A stretch of DNA of 64,000 bases from Polynucleobacter sp. 30F-ANTBAC (GTDB lineage: Bacteria; Pseudomonadota; Gammaproteobacteria; Burkholderiales; Burkholderiaceae), in contig NZ_JACVON010000001.1 in assembly GCF_018882385.1 (NCBI RefSeq), positions 666,942-730,941 of the forward strand, read 5' to 3'. A program made the translations under genes and the position numbers. Below are positions 16,083 to 27,599 of the stretch, piece by piece. The notes below the pieces were generated by a model that worked only from the letters and a program-made list of their open reading frames with translations, did not search any database and was not told the DNA's origin. Within the stretch, counting starts at the first letter, position 1; each line of letters begins with the position of its first letter.

Positions 16083-17198
16083 TTAATGGATCAATGTTTT
16101 AGGGTCAACATACTCCAAGCCCTGAGCAATAGCTACAGCCTGACAACAAACATGACCTTGGTAAACATTAAGCCCGTTCATTAAATGCTGATTTCTGGCA
16201 AGCGCCAGTTCAGTACCGTGATTAGCCAGATCCATGACAAATGGAGCCGTAGCATTAGTTAATGCAATGGTTGAGGTTCTTGCAACAGCACCAGGCATAT
16301 TGGCTACACAATAGTGAATCACATCATCTACCAAGTATGTTGGATCTTGATGTGAAGTTGGGCGAGAAGTCTCGAAACAACCACCTTGATCAATCGCCAC
16401 ATCCACCAAAACAGAGCCTGGATGTATTTTTGACACCAAACTCTTGCTAACTAATTTTGGAGCAGAAGCTCCCGGAATCAGAACACTGCCAATGACTACG
16501 TCTGCATTGATAACGGCACGTTCAATATTTGACGTGCTAGAGTAAAGCGTATGGATACGATTCCCATAAAGAGCATCTAACTCCCTTAAGCGATCAATGT
16601 TTTTATCAATAATGGTCACTTCAGCACCCAAACCAACAGCCATCTGAAGAGCCGATGAACCCACAACACCAGCACCTAAAATAACCACTTGGGCAGGATA
16701 GACTCCCGGAACACCACCCAACAGTAACCCTCTACCACCTTGCGATTTTTCCAAATGATTCGCGGCTGCTTGCATAGACATTCTTCCAGCCACTTCACTC
16801 ATAGGCGCCAATAAAGGCAAGCGCCCATTTGAGCTAGTCACAGTCTCATAGGCAATACAAGTCGCCTGAGAATTGATAAGCGCTTGTGTTTGCGCAGGAT
16901 CTGGCGCCAAGTGCAAATAGGTGAATAAAGTTTGACCTGGCTTTAGCATCTGACACTCTTCTGGCTGCGGCTCTTTCACCTTCACAACCAAATTAGAACG
17001 CTCGAAGATATGCTTAGCATGGTCCACAATCTCAGCACCAACCATCACATAGTGCTCATCTAAAAAGCCAATACCTTGACCAGCATTTTTTTCAATTAAT
17101 ACCTGATGACCAAAACGACTTAACTCAAACACTTGATCAGGCGTTAAGCCAACTCGGTACTCATGGTTTTTAATCTCTTTAGGTACACCAACAATCAT
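16083..17198 (-). CDS. ald: Alanine dehydrogenase
   Basis: This 371-residue NAD-dependent enzyme interconverts L-alanine and pyruvate plus ammonia. The N-terminal block GVPKEIKNHEYRVGLTP, the KVKEPQPEE lysine region and the Rossmann motif near 175 (VVILGAGVVGSSALQMA) are typical. Its first 4 bases overlap the stop of the upstream permease gene (ATGA), so the two are translationally coupled and the permease may bring in alanine. That makes a catabolic carbon and nitrogen role likely. Confidence 0.96.
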   Translation of the reverse strand: MIVGVPKEIKNHEYRVGLTPDQVFELSRFGHQVLIEKNAGQGIGFLDEHYVMVGAEIVDHAKHIFERSNLVVKVKEPQPEECQMLKPGQTLFTYLHLAPDPAQTQALINSQATCIAYETVTSSNGRLPLLAPMSEVAGRMSMQAAANHLEKSQGGRGLLLGGVPGVYPAQVVILGAGVVGSSALQMAVGLGAEVTIIDKNIDRLRELDALYGNRIHTLYSSTSNIERAVINADVVIGSVLIPGASAPKLVSKSLVSKIHPGSVLVDVAIDQGGCFETSRPTSHQDPTYLVDDVIHYCVANMPGAVARTSTIALTNATAPFVMDLANHGTELALARNQHLMNGLNVYQGHVCCQAVAIAQGLEYVDPKTLIH

Positions 17199-18568
17199 GA
17201 TTTACTCCTCTCTCTTTTATGTAAGCCAAAAATAAAATACAACACGGTTAATCCAATCAAAATCGGTGGGCCGACATAAAAAGCCATTCGAGTTGCCTCT
17301 GAGTAAGCCATTAAACCGATCACAAAAAATACAAACAAGATGGCAAACCATGATCCATACGGCCAAAAAATAGCCTTGTAAGGCAATGCCTTAACGCCCT
17401 CTTGAGAAAGACTCTGCCTAAAACGTATTTGGGTATAAAGAATCGCGATCCACACCAATAACCCAATCAATGTGACGGCTGCAGTAATCCATTGGAAAGC
17501 TTTTTCAGGAACGAAATAATTAATAGCAACGCCCACCGTTGGAACCAAAATAGTTAAAGCAATAGCTTTGACTGGCACGCCATTAGAGGAAACCTCTGAA
17601 AGATACTTGGGTGCATTACCACCTCTAGATAAGCCTAAGAGGAGACGCCCACCACTAAATATGCCTGCATTACAGGATGACAATGCGGCGGTGATCACGA
17701 CAAAATTAATAACGCCTGCTGCTTCGCGAAGACCCAAACTCTCAAACATAGCAACAAAGGGGCTGCCATTTTGACCAACCTGGTGCCAAGGGAATATTGC
17801 CAATATGACAAAAAGTGCTCCCACATAAAAAATCAAAATGCGCCAGGACAATGAGTTGATCGCCATCGGAATCGTGCGACTAGGATCCTTGGCTTCACCT
17901 GCAGATAAGCCAATCATCTCAATACCGACATAGGCAAATAAAACCATCTGAAGTGAAAGTAAAAAACCTTCAACTCCATTAGGGAAGAATCCCCCATGCT
18001 GCCATAGATTTGCTACACCAATAGGCTCACCACCATTACCAAGACCAAGGAAAATCATGGAGCAACCAATAGCAATCATTGAAACAATAGCCACAACCTT
18101 AATCAATGAAAACCAGAACTCAAATTCACCAAATACTTTGACTGCCACAAAATTTATGCCGCCCATTGCCAGTATCGATGCCAAAGCCCATATCCACTGC
18201 GGTACATCAGGAAACCAAAGCGTCATGTAAACACCTACCGCCGTGATTTCAGCGAGACCCACCACAATCCAGTAAGTCCAGTATCCCCATCCAACCAAGT
18301 AACCCGCTAAAGGACCAATGTAGCGAGTCGCATAATGAGAAAAGGATCCCGAGACGGGCTCATGAACAGCCATCTCACCCAAAGCCCTTAAAACAATAAA
18401 GGCCACTAAGCCCGCTAAGATGTACCCCAACATAATCGATGGGCCCGCAAGCTGGATAGCAGTTGCTGATCCCAGAAATAAACCCACACCAATGGTTGAG
18501 CCCAAGGCCATTAATCGTATATGCCTTGGCTGCAAACTTCTCTTTAATCCATGGTTGTCATGAACCAT
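17195..18568 (-). CDS. Amino acid permease (APC family), likely alanine-type substrate
   Basis: This 457-residue protein starts at the ATG giving MVHDNHGLKR; GGAGGT at ideal spacing supports it over a start seven codons upstream. It has about 12 hydrophobic spans and the AAT-family N-terminal motif (RHIRLMALGSTIGVGLFLG). It resembles the ProY/CycA/AnsP group of proton-coupled amino acid importers. Coupling to ald suggests alanine, possibly with glycine or D-alanine. The substrate is inference. Candidate control sites lie upstream at 18683-18696 and 18737-18788. Confidence 0.88.
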   Translation of the reverse strand: MVHDNHGLKRSLQPRHIRLMALGSTIGVGLFLGSATAIQLAGPSIMLGYILAGLVAFIVLRALGEMAVHEPVSGSFSHYATRYIGPLAGYLVGWGYWTYWIVVGLAEITAVGVYMTLWFPDVPQWIWALASILAMGGINFVAVKVFGEFEFWFSLIKVVAIVSMIAIGCSMIFLGLGNGGEPIGVANLWQHGGFFPNGVEGFLLSLQMVLFAYVGIEMIGLSAGEAKDPSRTIPMAINSLSWRILIFYVGALFVILAIFPWHQVGQNGSPFVAMFESLGLREAAGVINFVVITAALSSCNAGIFSGGRLLLGLSRGGNAPKYLSEVSSNGVPVKAIALTILVPTVGVAINYFVPEKAFQWITAAVTLIGLLVWIAILYTQIRFRQSLSQEGVKALPYKAIFWPYGSWFAILFVFFVIGLMAYSEATRMAFYVGPPILIGLTVLYFIFGLHKRERSKS

Positions 18569-18682
18569 TTTTACCTCCATTTTTATCAATCGAAAAATCG
18601 AATGACGAGAATAGGAGTCAACACAAAAGTTGTATATGGCTAGAATTTATTGAATGTATTTAAATCACCATATATGACAATG

Positions 18683-18812: not shown

Positions 18813-19958
18813 CTAATCAGGAATTTTGATGTCACTAGTACCTGGGCAAACGAAACGAGGCGATTCTCTGGAGGTATCAATACAACCTCCTTGATCATAA
18901 ACACCCTTGGGATCACGGTAGCGCATCATGCGCTGAAGAATTCTCTGAACTTCTTTTGGGTCAGCCAACGATTGAGCAACGCAAGACTCAACAATGTTTT
19001 CATTCATCAATAACTCACCATTCTGATCAAGGTAGGCGCCATCTTTCCAGTGATAAACCTCCACACATTTAGATTCAAGCGTGAATGGTTGATCTCTTTT
19101 CCAAAAGTTAGTGAATAAATTGTGACCCAAGTAAATAACCCACGAACCTTCATAGCCAGATATATCGGAAGAGCGGCTATCAGGATTGCGGAACCAAACA
19201 CGATCCCCAGGAACGTAGTACTTCATTGGCAACGGATCTTCCAAAGAGCCATACTCTTTTAAGAAAAGCTCGTGAAACTCGCCTGATCGAATTGCTCTCT
19301 TTTCCGAACGCTCCTCTAAACGTTTTAATAGAAGAGGATTAACTTTTTTTAATTTGCGTGAAATGGCCAATAAAATGACATATTCTGTAGCCCTGTAACA
19401 AGAGAATGCATAAGCCTTATCCTCCTCCTGTGGCTGAGTTGCACTAATTAAGGCCTCAATAATTGATTGCCCTTTATTCAGTAAAAAACCATCATCTTCA
19501 TCGTAATGCCAATATTTCTCAGGACGCTCAGTGGCATTCGTGTCAAAGTTTAAAGCAGCCAAATAGCCTGCTAGGACAGTATGGTGCCTTATCTGGATGG
19601 CCGAATGAAATTCGTCATAACTTGGGAATTGAAATGGTATTGGCGCAAGCAACATGCCAACTAAGATTTCTTTATTAAGGTCATTGATAACCTTATAGCC
19701 TTTTAAAGAGAGTCTTTCGTAAAGCCGCGTTGTGTCCCAGTTAGGCGCCCACTTATTTCTATACTCTTCTTTTAGACTAAAAGAAATTAATGCCGATGTC
19801 TCTTGATTAAGCTCGGTTATCTTGACTGCACTCCCTAATTGATGCAACTTTAAATAACTTAGCATTTCAATCATTACGTTTTCTTTATCACTTTTATTTG
19901 ATAAAGAAAATTCAATTCCACGAGTTTCAAAATCTCTTACTTGTTGATTCTCGCTCAT
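18813..19958 (-). CDS. Tgl-like (transglutaminase-related) protein of the cyanophycin locus
   Basis: A 381-residue protein with no signal peptide or transmembrane span. Residues about 148-300 follow Bacillus spore transglutaminase Tgl block by block: KYW near 148, a hydrophobic helix after AYAFSC with Cys187 at the nucleophile position, GDRVWFRNPD at 251-260, and GYEGSWVIYLG at 268-278. The Bacillus catalytic Glu (in GEN) and His (in AHG) line up with Ser272 and Phe285, so ordinary transglutaminase chemistry is doubtful; Glu270 and His279 are nearby alternatives. About 140 extra N-terminal residues and an 80-residue C-terminal tail (with three more Cys) are not in Tgl. It follows the DUF1854 gene by 8 bases with its own AGGA site, so it is the last gene of the ABC-DUF1854 operon. 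The alignment is from memory of the family and needs a profile search. Confidence 0.55.
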   Translation of the reverse strand: MSENQQVRDFETRGIEFSLSNKSDKENVMIEMLSYLKLHQLGSAVKITELNQETSALISFSLKEEYRNKWAPNWDTTRLYERLSLKGYKVINDLNKEILVGMLLAPIPFQFPSYDEFHSAIQIRHHTVLAGYLAALNFDTNATERPEKYWHYDEDDGFLLNKGQSIIEALISATQPQEEDKAYAFSCYRATEYVILLAISRKLKKVNPLLLKRLEERSEKRAIRSGEFHELFLKEYGSLEDPLPMKYYVPGDRVWFRNPDSRSSDISGYEGSWVIYLGHNLFTNFWKRDQPFTLESKCVEVYHWKDGAYLDQNGELLMNENIVESCVAQSLADPKEVQRILQRMMRYRDPKGVYDQGGCIDTSRESPRFVCPGTSDIKIPD

Positions 19959-19966
19959 GTCAATTC

Positions 19967-20443
19967 CTATAAGAAACGATCTAGTAAACGACGGCTATGT
20001 TTATTTAAAGACGTGATATCTTGAATAAGATATTGAACACCATGCGTATCGGCAATCAAATATGTTTTAGGATTAATCCGTCGGATATTTTCTTCACCAC
20101 GTAATATGAATTCGGTTGAACCACGATTTGTCTCAACCTGCCAGGTACTGGGTGTTGCAAAAGTTGATACCGCTTTAATTTCGGTTAACACCGGCATAAA
20201 TTCTCGAGTAGCAAATTCAGCCCGAATCAATTGCTGATTCTCAGAACTCGTTTGCTCAAGGCGATCCAACCACACTAACTCATGGCCATCACGATCAACT
20301 ATCGCAATAGATTCATCCGGATGGCTAATTGGGAAAGCCTTAACAGGTACTACTTGCTCATGTAATACGCCAAACTCATCTTTTAAACATAGATAGCCAA
20401 AAGCGTTTTTTGATAGCGAGAAGGATGTTGCCAAATTAATCAT
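19967..20443 (-). CDS. Cyanophycin metabolism-associated DUF1854 protein
   Basis: A 158-residue protein from the ATG giving MINLATSFSL, which overlaps the end of the ABC gene by 8 bases; a TTG start 27 codons upstream would run through the ABC frame and is unlikely. DUF1854 proteins are small and soluble, and occur beside an ABC exporter in betaproteobacterial cyanophycin loci, as here. The biochemical role is unknown. Blocks such as FATREFMPVLTEI and INPKTYLIADTHGVQYLI are visible, with no metal or nucleotide motif. Confidence 0.82.
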   Translation of the reverse strand: MINLATSFSLSKNAFGYLCLKDEFGVLHEQVVPVKAFPISHPDESIAIVDRDGHELVWLDRLEQTSSENQQLIRAEFATREFMPVLTEIKAVSTFATPSTWQVETNRGSTEFILRGEENIRRINPKTYLIADTHGVQYLIQDITSLNKHSRRLLDRFL

Positions 20444-22733
20444 GCTGCACTCCCAACTCCTCATCCACTGCATCCATCGCTTGCCTTGCTTGCGTGTCAT
20501 ACATGCGACGATAGACCCCCTCAAGACTCATCAATTGATCATGACTCCCCTGCTCCACAACCTGGCCTTTATCCAAAACAATCAAGCGATCTGCCTTACG
20601 AAGCGTGGAGAGGCGATGAGCAATCGCTATCGTGGTTCTGCCCTTAACAAGATTATCCAATGCCTTCTGAATTTCTTTTTCAGTCGTACTATCCACTGAG
20701 GATGTCGCCTCATCTAATATCAAAATTTGAGGGTCGATTAACAATGCTCTTGCGATTGAGATACGCTGACGCTCTCCACCAGAAAGTGACTGTCCGCGTT
20801 CACCTACCAATGAATCGTAGCCATGGGGTAAACGCAAAATAAACTCATGAGCATGAGCGGCCCTAGCGGCAGCAATAATTTCTTCACGACTGGCATCGGG
20901 CTTGCCATAAGCAATATTTTCAGCAATCGTGCCAAAGAATAAAAATGGCTCTTGCAACACCAATCCAATATGTCGCCTGTAATCAGCCACAGCAATCGAG
21001 CGAATATCAACGCCATCTAACTTGATGGTCCCCTCTGCTGCATCGTAAAAACGGCAAATTAAATTAACTAACGTGCTTTTTCCAGAACCACTATGCCCTA
21101 CTAGGCCAATCATTTCACCTGGGGCTATTTGTAAATTAATACCTTTTGTCACTGCGCGATTACCGTAACGGAACCCCACATTTTGCAAATCAATACGGCC
21201 TTCAACTTTTGTCAGCTTAACTGGTTGAACTGGGTCTGGGACGCTTGAGACATGATCCAAAATATCAAAAATTCGTTTGGATGCCGTAGCAGCTTGTTGA
21301 GTAAAGGCCACAATACGACTCATGGAGTCCAAACGTGTATAAAACCGCCCTATATAAGCTAAACAGGCAGTGAGCATACCAACCGTAATCGCATCATTAG
21401 AAATCTGCCAAATACCAAATGCCCAAACAACAAGTAAACCAATCTCAGTTAGCAAAGTAATCGTTGGCGAGAACAAAGCCCAAACCCGATTGACTCGATC
21501 ATTGACAGCTAAGTTATGTTGGTTAGCCAAGCGAAAACGATCGGTCTCACGCTCTTCTTGAGCAAATGCTTTAACAACTCGAACCCCGGGAATCGTATCA
21601 GCCAGAACGCTGGTAACCTCAGACCAGATTCGATCAATTTTCTCAAAGCCAAATCGTAATTTGTCACGCACCACATGAATAGCCCAGCCAATGAAAGGTA
21701 ATGGCGTCAAAGTTACCAAAGCCAACCAAGGATCAATAGATACCAATATCACTGCGGTCATCAAAATCATCAGGACATCAGTGGCGAAATCCAATAAGTG
21801 TAGAGATAAAAATAAACAAATACGATCGGATTCAGAACCGATCCTTGCCATCAAATCACCCGTTCTTTTGCCACCAAAATACTCCAACGACAATTTCATC
21901 AAGTGCTCGTAAGTTTCGGTTCTGAGATCCGCTCCAATGCGCTCACTGACCAAAGCCAAAATATATGTTTTTGCCCAACCCAAGGCCCAAGCCAATAGCG
22001 CAGCAAGGAAAAGCGCTGCCAAATAAAAAATAGTTAGCTGTTGGTCTATTGGCTGACCACTCTGGTAGGGCAACAAAATATCGTCCATCAACGGCATGGT
22101 TAGATAGGGAGGCACTAATGTGGCGGCAGTTGAAGCGAGGGTTAATAAGAAGCCCGCAAGTAACTGCCCTTTGTAGGGTTTAGCAAATCTCCATAAACGG
22201 AATAAAGTCCAAGTTGATGGAGCCGTCAGGTTTTCTGAAGAGCAAGCAGGGCATTCTTCTTGATCAGGTGGCAATGGCACCCAACAAGATGGGCAAACAG
22301 ACTGAGTCCCCAATTCCTGCTCAGAATGACTACCCCCTAAAAACCGATTTTTTTCTATGTTGTAGTGCTGAACAAGCCTTGTCGCTGCAGGGTTTTGAGC
22401 GAGGGTGAAACGCCAGGATGCGAGACAACCTTCCTCACTAACCAACTCTAAGCTGGCAACACCCGCGTGATCGTGCAATCGAAGCTGGTTCTTTTCCGAG
22501 AATGCCCAGTGATCCCAATTTTGGGATGCATCCGCCCCTAATAAATTATGTTTTTTATAAGAGAATAAGCCTTGGGGCGTGAGATAAATGAGCCCTTTTT
22601 CAAAGTGCAGATCTTGGTTTAAATCTAATTCCAGGAAAGTGATCATCGACCCGCTTACCCCCTCATGAAGAGGTAAAGCAGCTTGCCAGTGGCTTGGCAG
22701 CCTATTGAATTGTCTAGTGTCGATATTTGTCAA
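20436..22733 (-). CDS. Cyanophycin metabolism-associated ABC exporter-type transporter
   Basis: This 765-residue protein has an unusual N-terminal part: about 140 soluble residues, then a zinc-ribbon-like pair C147-x2-C150 ... C161-x2-C164. An ABC exporter transmembrane domain (about 180-480) and a nucleotide-binding domain follow, with GHSGSGKST, LSGGERQR and LILDEATSSVD motifs. It is a half-transporter that should dimerise. Its link with cyanophycin is by position: divergent from two cyanophycin synthetases and translationally coupled to DUF1854. What it transports is unknown; peptides or a polymer-related solute are guesses. No signal peptide is present on the N-terminal extension, so that part is cytoplasmic. 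Confidence 0.85.
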   Translation of the reverse strand: MTNIDTRQFNRLPSHWQAALPLHEGVSGSMITFLELDLNQDLHFEKGLIYLTPQGLFSYKKHNLLGADASQNWDHWAFSEKNQLRLHDHAGVASLELVSEEGCLASWRFTLAQNPAATRLVQHYNIEKNRFLGGSHSEQELGTQSVCPSCWVPLPPDQEECPACSSENLTAPSTWTLFRLWRFAKPYKGQLLAGFLLTLASTAATLVPPYLTMPLMDDILLPYQSGQPIDQQLTIFYLAALFLAALLAWALGWAKTYILALVSERIGADLRTETYEHLMKLSLEYFGGKRTGDLMARIGSESDRICLFLSLHLLDFATDVLMILMTAVILVSIDPWLALVTLTPLPFIGWAIHVVRDKLRFGFEKIDRIWSEVTSVLADTIPGVRVVKAFAQEERETDRFRLANQHNLAVNDRVNRVWALFSPTITLLTEIGLLVVWAFGIWQISNDAITVGMLTACLAYIGRFYTRLDSMSRIVAFTQQAATASKRIFDILDHVSSVPDPVQPVKLTKVEGRIDLQNVGFRYGNRAVTKGINLQIAPGEMIGLVGHSGSGKSTLVNLICRFYDAAEGTIKLDGVDIRSIAVADYRRHIGLVLQEPFLFFGTIAENIAYGKPDASREEIIAAARAAHAHEFILRLPHGYDSLVGERGQSLSGGERQRISIARALLIDPQILILDEATSSVDSTTEKEIQKALDNLVKGRTTIAIAHRLSTLRKADRLIVLDKGQVVEQGSHDQLMSLEGVYRRMYDTQARQAMDAVDEELGVQHD

Positions 22734-22773: not shown

Positions 22774-22861
22774 CAAATTTACCAAACAAAATATTTACCT
22801 TTTTTTGTCAACTAAAAGACCTCCCAAGCGTTAATCGAAGAAGTACAATGAGGTAAATTTG
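22774..22861. promoter_or_regulatory. Inverted repeat flanking the divergent cyanophycin promoters
   Basis: CAAATTTACC at 22774-22783 and its exact complement GGTAAATTTG at 22852-22861 bracket the gap between the ABC exporter and the first synthetase. A third near-copy (ATATTTACC, 22791-22799) lies 16 bases after the first in the same direction. The right arm covers the ribosome site and TTG start of the plus-strand gene. These are candidate operators for co-regulating both sides. A TTGACA-type -35 on the minus strand and a TACAAT on the plus strand lie between them, but neither has a convincing partner element. Confidence 0.45.
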
Positions 22862-25027
22862 GCACTTTCGCCCCACATGACAAAAAAAACAATAGAAATC
22901 ATAGATATTAAGGTCCTCAAGGGGCCGAGCATGTGGACCTACAGCCCAGTCTTAGAGGCTTGGGTTGATATTGGCGACCTTGAAGATTACCCATCCAACA
23001 CTATTCCGGGCTTTACTGACCGTTTGGTGTCATGGTTACCTAGCCTCATTGAGCATCGTTGCAGCTATGGCGAGCATGGCGGCTTCGTTAAGCGCCTAGA
23101 AGAAGGTACCTGGCCCGCTCATATTCTTGAACACGTCACCTTAGAGCTCCAGAATTTAGCCGGCATGCCAGGTGGGTTTGGTAAAGCCCGAGAAACCAAT
23201 AAACGAGGTGTTTATAAGGTCATTGTTCGTGCATGGCATGAGGAAATTACCAAAACTGCTCTGTATCATGCTCGCGACCTAGTGATGGCCGCCATTGAAA
23301 ACCAACAATTTGATGTTCCTGCTGCAATTAAAGAAATCGAAGACTTGGTCGATAGCCTTTATCTAGGTCCAAGCACGGGCTGCATCGTTGATGCTGCCAG
23401 AGAAAGAAAAATTCCAGCCACTCGTTTATCTGAGGGCAACCTAGTTCAACTCGGTTATGGCAATCAGCAAAGACGTATTTGGACGGCTGAAACAGAGTTA
23501 ACGAGTGCTATTGCTGAAGGCATCTCAAGAGATAAAGATTTAACTAAATCACTCCTAGCCTCTTGCGGCGTCCCAGTTCCAGAGGGTCGCATGGTTGAAA
23601 GCCCCGCTGATGCCTGGGAAGCAGCGCAAGATATTGGCCTACCGGTTGTTGTCAAACCATACGACGGCAACCATGCGCGCGGTGTTTTTACAAACCTCAG
23701 TAGTCAAATTGAAATTGAAAAATCTTTTGAGGATGCCCTCAATGAGGGAAGCGGCGTGATGGTTGAGCGCTTCATTCCAGGCAATGAACATCGCTTATTA
23801 GTTGTGGGCAAAAAAGTTGTTGCTGCTGCAAAGGGTGAATCTGCCTGGGCAAAAGGCGATGGCTTAAGAAGTATTCGTCAATTAATTGAAGAAGAGATTA
23901 ATACTGACCCTCGTCGCGGTGACGCTGAAATACTTCCCTTAAGCCCCGTTGTTTTTGATAAAAAACTAGAGCTTGAGCTTGCTCGCCAAAAACTAACACT
24001 TGATTCGGTTCCAGAGAAAGACCAAGATGTTTTAGTTCAAGGTTCCGGGAACATGGCTTTTGAAGTGACGCACCTCGTTCACCCAGACGTTGCTGCACAA
24101 GCAGCTCTCGCAGCGAGAGTCATTGGATTAGATATCGCAGGCATTGATCTAGTTGCGGAAGATATTTCCAGACCACTCGAAGAGCAAGGTGGAGCCATTG
24201 TTGAAGTTAATGCAGGTCCTGGTTTAATCATGCATTTAAAACCCGCTGTGGGCGAGCCACAGCCAGTTGGAGCTGCGATCGTTGAGCACTTATTCCCCAA
24301 TCAAGCAAATGGACGCATACCCGTTGTTGGTGTTGCTGGCTCACGCGGAAAAACAATGGTTGCACAATTGGTTAGTCACCTGCTTCAGTTAACCGGCATG
24401 AAAGTTGGTTTGGCTTGCAGCAAAGGTGCTTTCTTCAATCAACGTCTACAGACCTCTGGTAATTGCGCCAACTGGACAAGTGCCAATCGCTTATTACTTA
24501 ACCGCCAGGTAGAAGCTGCGGTGATTGAAAATGACAATCACACAATTCTGAATGAAGGTCTAGCCTATGATCGATGCAGCGTTGGCATCGTCACTAATTT
24601 GGATCCAGAAGATACTGCTCCTGAATGCTCCATCACTGAGCCAGAACAAATTTACAACGTCATGCGGACACAGGTTGATGTGGTTCTACCAACAGGAACC
24701 GCTATTTTGAATGCGGATGATGAAGCCGTTGTCAAAATGGCTGAGCTTTCCGATGGAGAAGTCATCCTATTTAGTCGTTATGGACTAAATGACGCAACAA
24801 AAAATCATCTAAAGAATGGTGGCCGTGCCCTGTTTACAGAAAACAATCAAATCGTTCTCGCGCAAGGTCCAGAGCGACAAGTTTTAATTGATCTAGCCAA
24901 CATCCCACTACTACAGTCAAGCAGCAAGACAAATACATTAGAAAATGTTTTAGCCGCTGTAGGAGCCGCATGGGCGCTGAACTCACCCAAAGATATCATC
25001 ATCGCTGGTCTTCAAACCTTTAATTAG
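22859..25027 (+). CDS. Cyanophycin synthetase paralogue with shortened C-terminus (CphA'-like)
   Basis: This 722-residue protein uses a TTG with GAGG five bases upstream; the first ATG, 18 bases later, has no such site. It has the CphA N-terminal domain (LKGPSMWTYSPVLEAW), an ATP-grasp domain (about 205-480) and the start of a Mur-ligase domain with GSRGKT at 494-499. In the partner CphA this P-loop is GTNGKT. Only about 225 residues follow the P-loop, against about 375 in CphA. The C-terminal Mur domain, including a DYGHNPDA-like block, is missing. Betaproteobacteria such as Cupriavidus carry a cphA/cphA' pair, so this is probably the known second type and not a broken gene. Its precise reaction is not clear from sequence. 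Confidence 0.87.
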   Translation: MALSPHMTKKTIEIIDIKVLKGPSMWTYSPVLEAWVDIGDLEDYPSNTIPGFTDRLVSWLPSLIEHRCSYGEHGGFVKRLEEGTWPAHILEHVTLELQNLAGMPGGFGKARETNKRGVYKVIVRAWHEEITKTALYHARDLVMAAIENQQFDVPAAIKEIEDLVDSLYLGPSTGCIVDAARERKIPATRLSEGNLVQLGYGNQQRRIWTAETELTSAIAEGISRDKDLTKSLLASCGVPVPEGRMVESPADAWEAAQDIGLPVVVKPYDGNHARGVFTNLSSQIEIEKSFEDALNEGSGVMVERFIPGNEHRLLVVGKKVVAAAKGESAWAKGDGLRSIRQLIEEEINTDPRRGDAEILPLSPVVFDKKLELELARQKLTLDSVPEKDQDVLVQGSGNMAFEVTHLVHPDVAAQAALAARVIGLDIAGIDLVAEDISRPLEEQGGAIVEVNAGPGLIMHLKPAVGEPQPVGAAIVEHLFPNQANGRIPVVGVAGSRGKTMVAQLVSHLLQLTGMKVGLACSKGAFFNQRLQTSGNCANWTSANRLLLNRQVEAAVIENDNHTILNEGLAYDRCSVGIVTNLDPEDTAPECSITEPEQIYNVMRTQVDVVLPTGTAILNADDEAVVKMAELSDGEVILFSRYGLNDATKNHLKNGGRALFTENNQIVLAQGPERQVLIDLANIPLLQSSSKTNTLENVLAAVGAAWALNSPKDIIIAGLQTFN

Positions 25028-25034
25028 TGAACAA

Positions 25035-27599
25035 ATGGAATTAACTCGTATCCGCGCTCTAAGAGGTCCCAATTTATGGGGTAAGCACACAGCTCTGGAA
25101 GCATTAGTTAAATGCGAGGAAAACGAAAAAGTTATTACCAATATTTTTGGCTTTGAAACACGCTTAAGATCCAGGTTCCCACAACTAGGTCCTGTTAGAC
25201 CCTACGGTCAGAATGAAACAGTATCTCTTGCTCATGCGCTAGAAGTTTGTTCAAGAGATCTCCAAGCTCAAGCAGGATGTCCGATTACCTTTAGTAGAAC
25301 CATGCCAACACCCGATGATGGTGTCTATATCGTGGTGGTTGAATATACAGAAGAAAAAGTAGGTCGCCTCGCACTTGAGCTAGCCATGAAACTTTGTCGC
25401 TCTGCTCTCATCGATAACGGCTCTCATGTTGAAGAGTACTTGCAAGAGCTGCGCGATTTAGATGAAAGCATTCGCCTAGGACCAAGCACAGGATCAATTG
25501 TGGATGCAGCGATTGCTCGCGGCATTCCGTATCGCCGTTTGACCGAAGGTAGTATGGTTCAGCTGGGCTGGGGCAGCAAGCAGCGCCGCATACAAGCAGC
25601 TGAAACTAGCTCGACTAGCGCCATTGCTGAATCCATTGCACAAGACAAAGAACTCACAAAAAATTTACTTCACGCAGCCGGAGTTCCGGTACCACTTGGC
25701 AGCATTGTCACAACAGCTGACGGAGCGTGGGAAGCCTTTAAGGAAATTAATGCGCCTGTTGCCATCAAACCAAGAGATGGCAACCAAGGCAAGGGTGTTG
25801 CAGTCAACATCCATACGCGCGAACAAATTGACATTGCATTTAATGCAGCATCCAAAATCTCTTCTGAAGTCATCGTTGAGCGCTACATGCCCGGCCATGA
25901 TCACCGACTACTTGTCATCGGCAATCAACTCATCGCAGCAGCAAGACGTGAGCCACCGTATGTCATTGGTGATGCCCAGCATACTGTCCGTGAATTGGTC
26001 GAAGAGATTAACAAGGATCCTAATCGTGGTGACGGTCACGCCACAGCATTAAGCAAAATTAGAATTGATGATATCGCCGTTGCGACACTGAAACATCAAA
26101 ACTTAACGCCCGAATCTGTGCCGGCAAAAGGATTGAGGGTCACGCTTAGGAACAACGCGAACTTAAGCACCGGTGGTACAGCTACAGATGTCACCGATGA
26201 TGTCCACCCTGATCTAGCCGCTTCAGCTATCGCTGCTGCACAAATGATTGGCCTTGATATTTGCGGTGTGGATGTGGTTTGCGACAACGTTTATCGCCCT
26301 CTAGAAGAGCAAGGCGGCGGTATTGTAGAAGTCAATGCAGCACCAGGACTAAGAATGCATCTTCACCCCTCCTACGGTAAAGGGCGTCCTGTTGGTGAAG
26401 CCATTATTTCGACCATGTTTGGTAAAGATGATGATGGACGTATTCCGGTTGTTGCCGTTACTGGCACCAATGGCAAAACAACAACAGTGAAGCTCATGAG
26501 CCATTTATTCGAAAAGAATGGTTTAAGAGTTGGGCATACCGGTACGGATGGCGTTTACATCAGCGGCAAAAGAATTGATACAGGCGACTGTAGCGGGCCT
26601 AAGAGTGCCCGTAACGTATTGATGCACCCTGATGTGGATGCGGCTGTTTTAGAAACAGCACGTGGCGGCATACTTAGAGAAGGCCTCGGTTTTGATCGCT
26701 GTGAGGTTGCCATTGTGACGAACCTCGGTGAAGGTGATCACCTGGGTATGAATTACATCAATACAACGGCTGACCTAGCTGCCGTCAAACGAGTGATTGT
26801 GCAAAACGTTGCACCCAATGGCATGGCGGTTCTTAATGCAGCTGACTTTAATGTCGTCAAAATGGCCAAGAGCTGCCCAGGTGAAATAACGTTCTTTGCT
26901 AAAGACATCAATCACCCTGTGATGGCGAAACACCGAGCCCAAGGTAAACGCGTGCTCTTTGTTCATCAAAATAAATTAATTGCAGCCGAAGGTAAAAAAG
27001 AATTCCACATTAACTTGGATCAAGTTCCAATAACAGCAGAGGGAACCATTGGATTCCAAGTTGAAAACGTTTTAGGTGTTGTTGGAGCTGCCTGGGCTCT
27101 AGGTATTCCTTGGGATGTCATCGCTGATGGTCTCAGCAGCTTTAAAAGCGATGCAAATACAGTTCCTGGACGATTTAATATTTTCAAATATGCCGGCGCC
27201 ACCATCATTGCGGACTACGGTCACAACCCTGATGCCATTTTGGCGCTTTCAGAAACCATTGCCAATATGCCAGCTAATAAACGAATGGTAGTGATCAGTG
27301 GTGCAGGAGATCGTCGAGATGAAGACTTGCGCCGTCAAACAGAAATTTTAGGTCAGTCTTTTGATCACATCATTTTGTATGAGGATCAATGCCAGCGTGG
27401 CAGAGCCGATGGTGAAGTAACAGCGATCATGCGTGATGGCCTAGCCAACTCTCAACAAGTTAAAAAGATAGAGGAATTTAGAGGCGAGTTTTTAGCTATC
27501 GATAAAGCTCTAGAACAAGTACAAGCCGGCGATATTTGTTTGATCCTTGTAGATCAAGTAGATGAGGCCCTAGCCCATATCAGTCAAAGAGTTAAATAA
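25035..27599 (+). CDS. cphA: Cyanophycin synthetase
   Basis: This 854-residue protein makes multi-L-arginyl-poly-L-aspartate in the cytoplasm with ATP. The three expected parts are in order: the N-terminal domain (RALRGPNLWGKH), an ATP-grasp domain that adds Asp (about 215-470) and a Mur-ligase-like domain that adds Arg. The last has GTNGKT at 477-482 and DYGHNPDA further on. The length matches primer-dependent CphA1. It starts 7 bases after its shorter paralogue, so the two are co-transcribed and may act together. No cyanophycinase or isoaspartyl dipeptidase gene lies in this window. Confidence 0.95.
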   Translation: MELTRIRALRGPNLWGKHTALEALVKCEENEKVITNIFGFETRLRSRFPQLGPVRPYGQNETVSLAHALEVCSRDLQAQAGCPITFSRTMPTPDDGVYIVVVEYTEEKVGRLALELAMKLCRSALIDNGSHVEEYLQELRDLDESIRLGPSTGSIVDAAIARGIPYRRLTEGSMVQLGWGSKQRRIQAAETSSTSAIAESIAQDKELTKNLLHAAGVPVPLGSIVTTADGAWEAFKEINAPVAIKPRDGNQGKGVAVNIHTREQIDIAFNAASKISSEVIVERYMPGHDHRLLVIGNQLIAAARREPPYVIGDAQHTVRELVEEINKDPNRGDGHATALSKIRIDDIAVATLKHQNLTPESVPAKGLRVTLRNNANLSTGGTATDVTDDVHPDLAASAIAAAQMIGLDICGVDVVCDNVYRPLEEQGGGIVEVNAAPGLRMHLHPSYGKGRPVGEAIISTMFGKDDDGRIPVVAVTGTNGKTTTVKLMSHLFEKNGLRVGHTGTDGVYISGKRIDTGDCSGPKSARNVLMHPDVDAAVLETARGGILREGLGFDRCEVAIVTNLGEGDHLGMNYINTTADLAAVKRVIVQNVAPNGMAVLNAADFNVVKMAKSCPGEITFFAKDINHPVMAKHRAQGKRVLFVHQNKLIAAEGKKEFHINLDQVPITAEGTIGFQVENVLGVVGAAWALGIPWDVIADGLSSFKSDANTVPGRFNIFKYAGATIIADYGHNPDAILALSETIANMPANKRMVVISGAGDRRDEDLRRQTEILGQSFDHIILYEDQCQRGRADGEVTAIMRDGLANSQQVKKIEEFRGEFLAIDKALEQVQAGDICLILVDQVDEALAHISQRVK

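Follow-up and report, generated by a model that had tools for sequence, protein, structure and literature searches.

The window, a 64,000-nucleotide stretch of Polynucleobacter sp. 30F-ANTBAC DNA, encodes a cytoplasmic member of a distinct clade of Tgl-fold proteins, found mainly in β-proteobacteria among the sequences collected here. The Tgl fold is predicted for this protein, its cysteine nucleophile is invariant in the clade, and three other residues of Tgl are replaced; the gene co-occurs with the cyanophycin synthetase gene cphA and has repeatedly been found next to genes of the cph cluster. On this basis we tentatively propose, with a confidence somewhat short of even, a cysteine acyl-transfer enzyme with cyanophycin or the proteins of its granule as substrate, the joining and the cleaving of bonds both being admitted.

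The TGL gene closes an ABC–DUF1854 unit

The features of the locus are as follows.

18813–19958, minus strand: TGL-fold protein of subfamily A, 381 residues, with the ATG at 19958 and the stop at 18813, without a hydrophobic N-terminus
19398–19403, minus strand: codons of Ser186 (position of B. subtilis Glu115) and Cys187 (B. subtilis Cys116), placed by profile alignment and conservation
19143–19151, minus strand: codons of Glu270 (position of B. subtilis Arg185), Gly271 and Ser272 (position of B. subtilis Glu187), placed by profile alignment and conservation
19104–19106, minus strand: codon of Phe285 (position of B. subtilis His200 by gapless extension), placed by alignment and conservation
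19959–19969, minus strand: DUF1854 stop codon (19969–19967), 8-nt gap and Shine–Dalgarno-like AGGA (19968–19965) before the TGL start, read from the sequence
19967–20524, minus strand: DUF1854 protein, CphA_assoc_prot NF052234, 212 bits against a cut-off of 150
20436–22733, minus strand: ABC exporter, CphA_assoc_ABC NF052233, 1357 bits against a cut-off of 880
22859–25027, plus strand: CphA', 722 residues, a cyanophycin synthetase paralogue without a Mur_ligase_C match and with the Cx19HxxEH motif
25035–27599, plus strand: CphA, full-length cyanophycin synthetase, 854 residues, without Cx19HxxEH

TGL is the last gene of a minus-strand ABC–DUF1854–TGL unit. The original prediction had assigned it to a cyanophycin operon; the gene does end the ABC–DUF1854 unit, but this unit is divergent from cphA'–cphA, and TGL is therefore not in one operon with cphA. 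The AGGA upstream of the TGL start overlaps the DUF1854 stop codon. TGL and DUF1854 are probably co-transcribed, and translation of TGL may be coupled to that of DUF1854. The true start of DUF1854 is likely Met28 (20443), because the profile match begins only at residue 35. Consensus promoter and terminator sites were fewer than in shuffled sequences.

The nearest named relatives of the window TGL, among the best 80 of 383 GTDB loci, are from Polynucleobacter. An amino acid permease gene (Pfam) and an alanine dehydrogenase-like gene (assigned by eye) lie 3' of TGL on the same strand (16083–18589 of the window); this order recurs in the eight Polynucleobacter loci that extend far enough. Why the storage of a polymer inside the cell should involve an exporter, here beside DUF1854 (window 19967–22733), is puzzling.

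The predicted fold is that of Bacillus Tgl

The four Bacillus Tgl motifs on which the original prediction was built are all present, in order, in the 381-residue ORF: KYW (148–150), AYAFSC (182–187), GDRVWFRNPD (251–260) and GYEGSWVIYLG (268–278). The HMM search against the Tgl family gave a match to Pfam TGL (PF20085) over residues 91–354 with E = 3e-32 and 112.3 bits, far above the gathering score of 23.7. A search with the single sequence reached Geobacillus Tgl (7c9j) at E = 0.049 only; a profile of 55 sequences reached 7c9j at 1.4e-9 and B. subtilis Tgl (4p8i) at 6.5e-4.

An AlphaFold2 model built from the 55-sequence alignment had a pLDDT of 92.2 and a pTM of 0.92. Up to E = 0.001, the only solved structures that Foldseek returned were two of Tgl (4p8i, E = 2.7e-7; 7c9j, E = 2.1e-6). 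The overlay on B. subtilis Tgl agreed with the predicted relationship: in VIA-align the model superimposed on 4p8i with a Z of 16.7 and an rmsd of 3.6 over 236 of 242 residues, and on 7c9j with a Z of 14.7. NlpC/P60 enzymes were the next structural neighbours, with a weak Z of about 5. The N-terminal part (residues 1–116), folded alone, gave a pLDDT of 85.4 and a best structural Z of 4.7; Foldseek matched this model to nothing at E up to 0.001, and it has no clear relative.

These results raise the reading of a classical transglutaminase, joining Gln side chains to Lys side chains in substrates such as granule proteins or lysine-containing cyanophycin. Cyanophycin can contain lysine, and both the Pfam match and the predicted Tgl fold are in line with such an activity. 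However, the NCBIfam equivalog for protein-glutamine γ-glutamyltransferase (Tgl, NF002869) scored 35.2 bits against a cut-off of 307, and the active-site residues described below make this reading improbable.

Subfamilies A and B

The clade comprises two subfamilies, which were compared by the hydrophobicity of the N-terminus (Kyte–Doolittle mean over 12 residues). Subfamily A, to which the window protein belongs, is without a hydrophobic N-terminus: the value is 0.93 for the window protein and at most 1.70 for 44 A sequences of 371–390 residues taken from the 80 GTDB loci. Subfamily B has values of 2.2–2.7 in 10 of 10 sequences tested, all of which match Pfam TGL, and by this N-terminus its members look exported.

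The window genome (G000) carries one gene of each kind, the B paralogue with its hydrophobic N-terminus being located at G000:C4:651980-652636 (L016, L165). No cph gene was found near B in the 13 B loci read (13.8–20 kb each); these include two (L171 and L172) where the gene caller missed the B ORF itself and cph genes were still sought. Five A loci labelled as Planctomycete (L128, L135, L145, L147 and L154) cluster together in the tree, and may be mislabelled bins or the result of transfer.

Replacement of Tgl residues around an invariant cysteine

According to PMC6490927, B. subtilis Tgl uses a Cys116–Glu187 dyad with Glu115 as a substitute, and His200 is an entrance residue that is not essential in catalysis; citing earlier work, the same source gives about 60% activity for E187A and no detected activity for E115A, C116A and H200A. 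The Cys–Glu–His triad assumed in the original prediction is imprecise, the arrangement described being a dyad with a substitute glutamate.

Residue equivalences come from aligning the profile with 4p8i and 7c9j, an alignment whose numbering agrees with the residues named in PMC6490927. Ser186–Cys187 align with B. subtilis Glu115–Cys116, Glu270 with Arg185 and Ser272 with Glu187; Phe285 takes the place of His200 only if the alignment is extended without a gap. The predicted replacement of the Tgl Glu by Ser272 and of the His by Phe285 thus stands, with Phe285 placed by that gapless extension. A third replacement goes beyond the original prediction, as the backup catalytic Glu115 is Ser186 in the window protein.

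Conservation was counted over 110 sequences with distinct cores (99 of A and 11 of B), many of the A sequences coming from the best 80 of 383 loci. Cys187 is kept in all 110 (99/99 A and 11/11 B). Glu270 and Ser272 are invariant in the 109 sequences that cover them, one partial A sequence (L041) ending before these residues. The Glu115 position is Ser in 98 and Ala in one of the 99 A sequences, and Gly in 11/11 B. At the His200 position, 96 of the 98 covered A sequences have Phe and two Leu; seven of the 11 B sequences have Phe and four Tyr. Retrieval of the 80 GTDB loci used the patterns GDR[LV]WFRN and [YF]EGSWV[FIL]Y, and this selection works in favour of Glu270 and Ser272 in that set; the A sequences from profile and whole-protein searches, which are free of this bias, have the cysteine in 32/32 and Glu270 and Ser272 in 31/31 covered, and the 11 B sequences agree with them at all three positions.

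The original prediction had named His279 and Glu270 as possible substitutes for the lost partners. His279 is present in only 12 of the 98 covered A sequences and in 0/11 B, and this poor conservation rules it out as a substitute base. Among the tabulated positions there is none at which A and B share a His; His303 is found in 95 of 98 covered A sequences and is Gln or Asn in 11/11 B. Glu270, being invariant wherever it is covered, could possibly fill the role. The AlphaFold2 model has a strand at 271–278, and a Cys187–Glu270 dyad is possible because residues i and i−2 of a strand can face one side.

Both glutamate supports and the entrance His of Tgl are therefore, by alignment, gone from the clade, and the nucleophile and another Glu are fixed. 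The clade-wide replacement of Glu115 and Glu187 speaks against a classical transglutaminase, as do the B. subtilis mutants E115A and H200A without detected activity, whereas E187A kept part of it. The same replacement of three residues that are needed for or support Tgl activity is what favours a pseudoenzyme, a granule protein with an inactive Tgl core and a binding or structural role, as the original prediction had allowed. We consider this improbable as well, at least in its pure form, since drift would be expected at an inactive site, yet the cysteine is fixed in 110/110 sequences and the residues around it (Ser186, Glu270, Gly271 and Ser272) vary little or not at all in A.

In four TGL ORFs that are more distant, from three genomes outside the order (L160–L163), the Cys is preceded by Asp and a His lies close to the His200 position, as read by eye. 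These ORFs are of a type with longer N-terminal parts, and one ORF has a Gly-Thr-Pro-rich repeat. The loss seen in the clade may thus be special to subfamilies A and B.

Occurrence with cphA

In a sample of 300 Burkholderiales genomes, cphA (TIGR02068 at E up to 1e-150) was found in 114, of which 109 scored above the curated cut-off. PF20085 was found in 30, and 29 of these 30 carriers have cphA; the link to cyanophycin made in the original prediction is thus stronger than could be known from one sequence. By subfamily, cphA is present in 23 of 24 carriers of A and in 9 of 9 carriers of B, three genomes having both. In the one exception (G188), which has no cphA at E 1e-100, the A gene lies in pieces on two contigs and one piece has an internal stop.

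Fisher tests, which ignore relatedness, gave p = 1e-12 for the TGL–cphA link by genome, p = 7e-8 by genus (cphA in 19/20 against 55/134 overall) and p = 3e-5 by family (15/15 against 29/51 overall). Since relatedness is ignored in these tests, carriers were also shuffled within families, in the 150 of 300 genomes with family labels (G061–G210); here 16 of 17 carriers had cphA against 12.3 expected (p = 0.007). The control gene RuBisCO, treated as unrelated and commoner than TGL (71/150), gave 29/71 against 29.7 expected in the same shuffle (p = 0.82). Within Polynucleobacter, where DUF1854 served as a proxy for the cph cluster, the link was not significant in a comparison that has no power (DUF1854 in 9/9 TGL genomes against 23/28 others, p = 0.31).

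In a class-level sample of 321 genomes, PF20085 was found in five besides the window genome, and cphA in one of these five against one of 54 non-carriers checked. Four of the five carriers, read by sequence, are neither A nor B, L159 being the fifth. The tie to cphA therefore holds for A and B in Burkholderiales and not for TGL at large. Only 29 of the 114 cphA genomes carry TGL; cyanophycin metabolism thus does not need it, and TGL is an accessory gene of cphA genomes.

Position relative to the cph genes

Among the best 80 of 383 relatives in GTDB, a set biased towards the query, genes of the cph cluster (DUF1854, ABC or cphA) lie near TGL in 23 loci and in four layouts. TGL follows DUF1854 on the same strand in 11 Polynucleobacter and six Thiobacillus-group loci, is convergent to DUF1854 in four of Alcaligenaceae, comes directly after cphA in one genome of Sulfuricellaceae, and lies about 1 kb after cphA in one of Comamonadaceae. 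Two further loci with TGL by cph genes (L178 and L179) were taken as the same genomes as L115 and L111 and not counted anew. When the loci with more than 6 kb on both sides are considered, cph-cluster genes are near TGL in 16 of 56.

Mapped on a tree of 79 sequences, the adjacency label changes 7 times, at least 3 of the changes being forced by well-supported branches; shuffled labels gave a mean of 20.8 changes, and 0 of 500 shuffles were as low as 7. The tree was a quick one without bootstraps, from which the short L087 and L157 were dropped, and it carries a long-branch warning that includes L153.

TGL does not as a rule lie next to DUF1854 and cphA. It is within 10 kb of cphA in only 3 of the 23 A-type cphA genomes of the order sample (G000, G156 and G300). 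In the other 20 it was not seen within 10 kb, some of these being drafts with the genes on different contigs. No cph gene was found in the 16–20 kb read at each of four further A loci (L175 and L180–L182). Within the genus, the A homologue is beside DUF1854 in six of the nine genomes that carry A. The remaining A loci have diverse neighbours.

Cyanophycin turnover and the proposed activity

The common cyanophycin gene cluster consists of cphA'–cphA with ABC–DUF1854, DUF1854 being present in 71 of 73 chosen cphA genomes. The two synthetases of the window split the labour, the shorter CphA' having the primer-making motif Cx19HxxEH and the longer CphA being without it. At two-copy loci (L078–L153) the motif is found in one copy only in 19/19, the other copies of L109 and L141 being partial. 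The motif is tied to primer making in PMC9262961, and a role of TGL as primer maker for CphA is not needed here because CphA' carries it.

Recognisable cyanophycinases are scarce in these bacteria. TIGR02069 (E up to 1e-10) was found in 18 of the 114 cphA genomes, 16 of them above the cut-off, and in two of the 29 with TGL; profile searches of the window genome found neither TIGR02069 nor the IaaA-type PF01112. The direction agrees with the survey in PMC10206079, which gives a recognisable cyanophycinase in 2.8% of 903 β-proteobacterial CphA1 genomes and suggests unknown isozymes.

This scarcity, together with the lack of a hit in the window genome, lends some weight to a cyanophycin hydrolase, in which TGL would be a thiol isopeptidase or peptidase replacing cyanophycinase in some β-proteobacteria, with A acting inside and B outside the cell, like CphB and CphE. 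The structural neighbourhood of the NlpC/P60 enzymes and the hydrophobic N-terminus, present in B and absent in A among the sequences tested, would fit such a division. Nevertheless, the NlpC/P60 match is weak, and those relatives that have been characterised (Bacillus and Geobacillus Tgl) act as transferases. The tendency of TGL and cyanophycinase to avoid each other does not reach significance (p = 0.15), and both TGL and TIGR02069 are missing from 69 of the 114 cphA genomes. We regard the hydrolase as unlikely, though not remotely so. The 69 genomes also rule out TGL as a general missing cyanophycinase, and another enzyme must therefore exist. No signal was seen for TGL replacing the dipeptidase IaaA (PF01112 in 4/29 TGL genomes against 12/44 TGL-negative, p = 0.25; the 44 were chosen from 85 TGL-negative cphA genomes, mostly of the same families).

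For the cysteine acyl-transfer enzyme that we tentatively prefer, Cys187 would attack an amide and form a thioester. The acid–base partner would be Glu270, which precedes the former Glu187 site by two residues, lies where the strand of that site begins and may point to the same side; this would give a relocated Cys–Glu dyad in which the Glu is shifted by two residues. The thioester would then be passed either to an amine, leading to cross-linking or attachment, or to water, leading to cleavage. Since Glu270 occupies the position of Arg185, a tunnel-entrance residue of Bacillus Tgl, it could be suited to a substrate that is cationic and rich in arginine, as cyanophycin is. A wider version, in which the cytosolic A and the exported B together would form an unrecognised cyanophycin enzyme family whose relocated dyad cleaves or transfers amide bonds and supplies part of the processing activity missing from β-proteobacteria, is speculative and on balance rather unlikely.

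Searches of the open-access literature, with subscription journals and preprints outside their scope, found no paper on such a protein in cyanophycin metabolism, on cyanophycin together with DUF1854, or on protein-glutamine γ-glutamyltransferase in β-proteobacteria. For cyanophycin and transglutaminase together no open-access title on such a protein was found, PMC7522526, in the part available, concerning other matters. A family with a conserved cysteine and a tie to cphA is a concrete candidate for an unknown cyanophycin step, be it cleavage, attachment or cross-linking. It is also a case in which a transglutaminase fold has lost, clade-wide, the partners described for its cysteine, with the cysteine itself fixed.

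Comparison with known systems

The window protein shares with B. subtilis Tgl (4p8i, 4pa5) and Geobacillus Tgl (7c9j) the core fold, the catalytic Cys and the strand motifs GD-x-x-(W/Y)F-x-N-P and G-x-x-x-(V/I), at 16–20% identity in structural alignments. It differs from them in about 70 extra residues before the Cys, in Ser, Ser and Phe for Glu115, Glu187 and His200, in a Glu at the Arg185 position, and in its context, which is cyanophycin rather than the spore coat. By score and predicted fold it is a member of Pfam TGL; yet it is not filed as a working Tgl transglutaminase, because the residues that define one (Glu187/Glu115 and His200) are replaced.

With the NlpC/P60 cysteine peptidases (6biq NlpC2 and MepS in 8xup) it has the Cys core in common, in a weak match (Z about 5); these enzymes presumably carry their catalytic His where the window protein has Ser272. 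The cyanophycinases CphB, CphE and CphI (TIGR02069, peptidase S51) resemble it in their genomic tie to cphA and in a possible role in polymer turnover, but they use a serine nucleophile and have another fold, and the window protein has no TIGR02069 match among its NCBIfam matches at E up to 1. CphA_assoc_ABC (NF052233) and CphA_assoc_prot (NF052234) are on the same strand and in the same direction as TGL here. Both are already named as cyanophycin-associated in NCBIfam, whereas TGL is not and matched no cyanophycin-associated NCBIfam model. DUF1854 also accompanies cphA far more regularly, in 71/73 chosen genomes against 29/114 for TGL.
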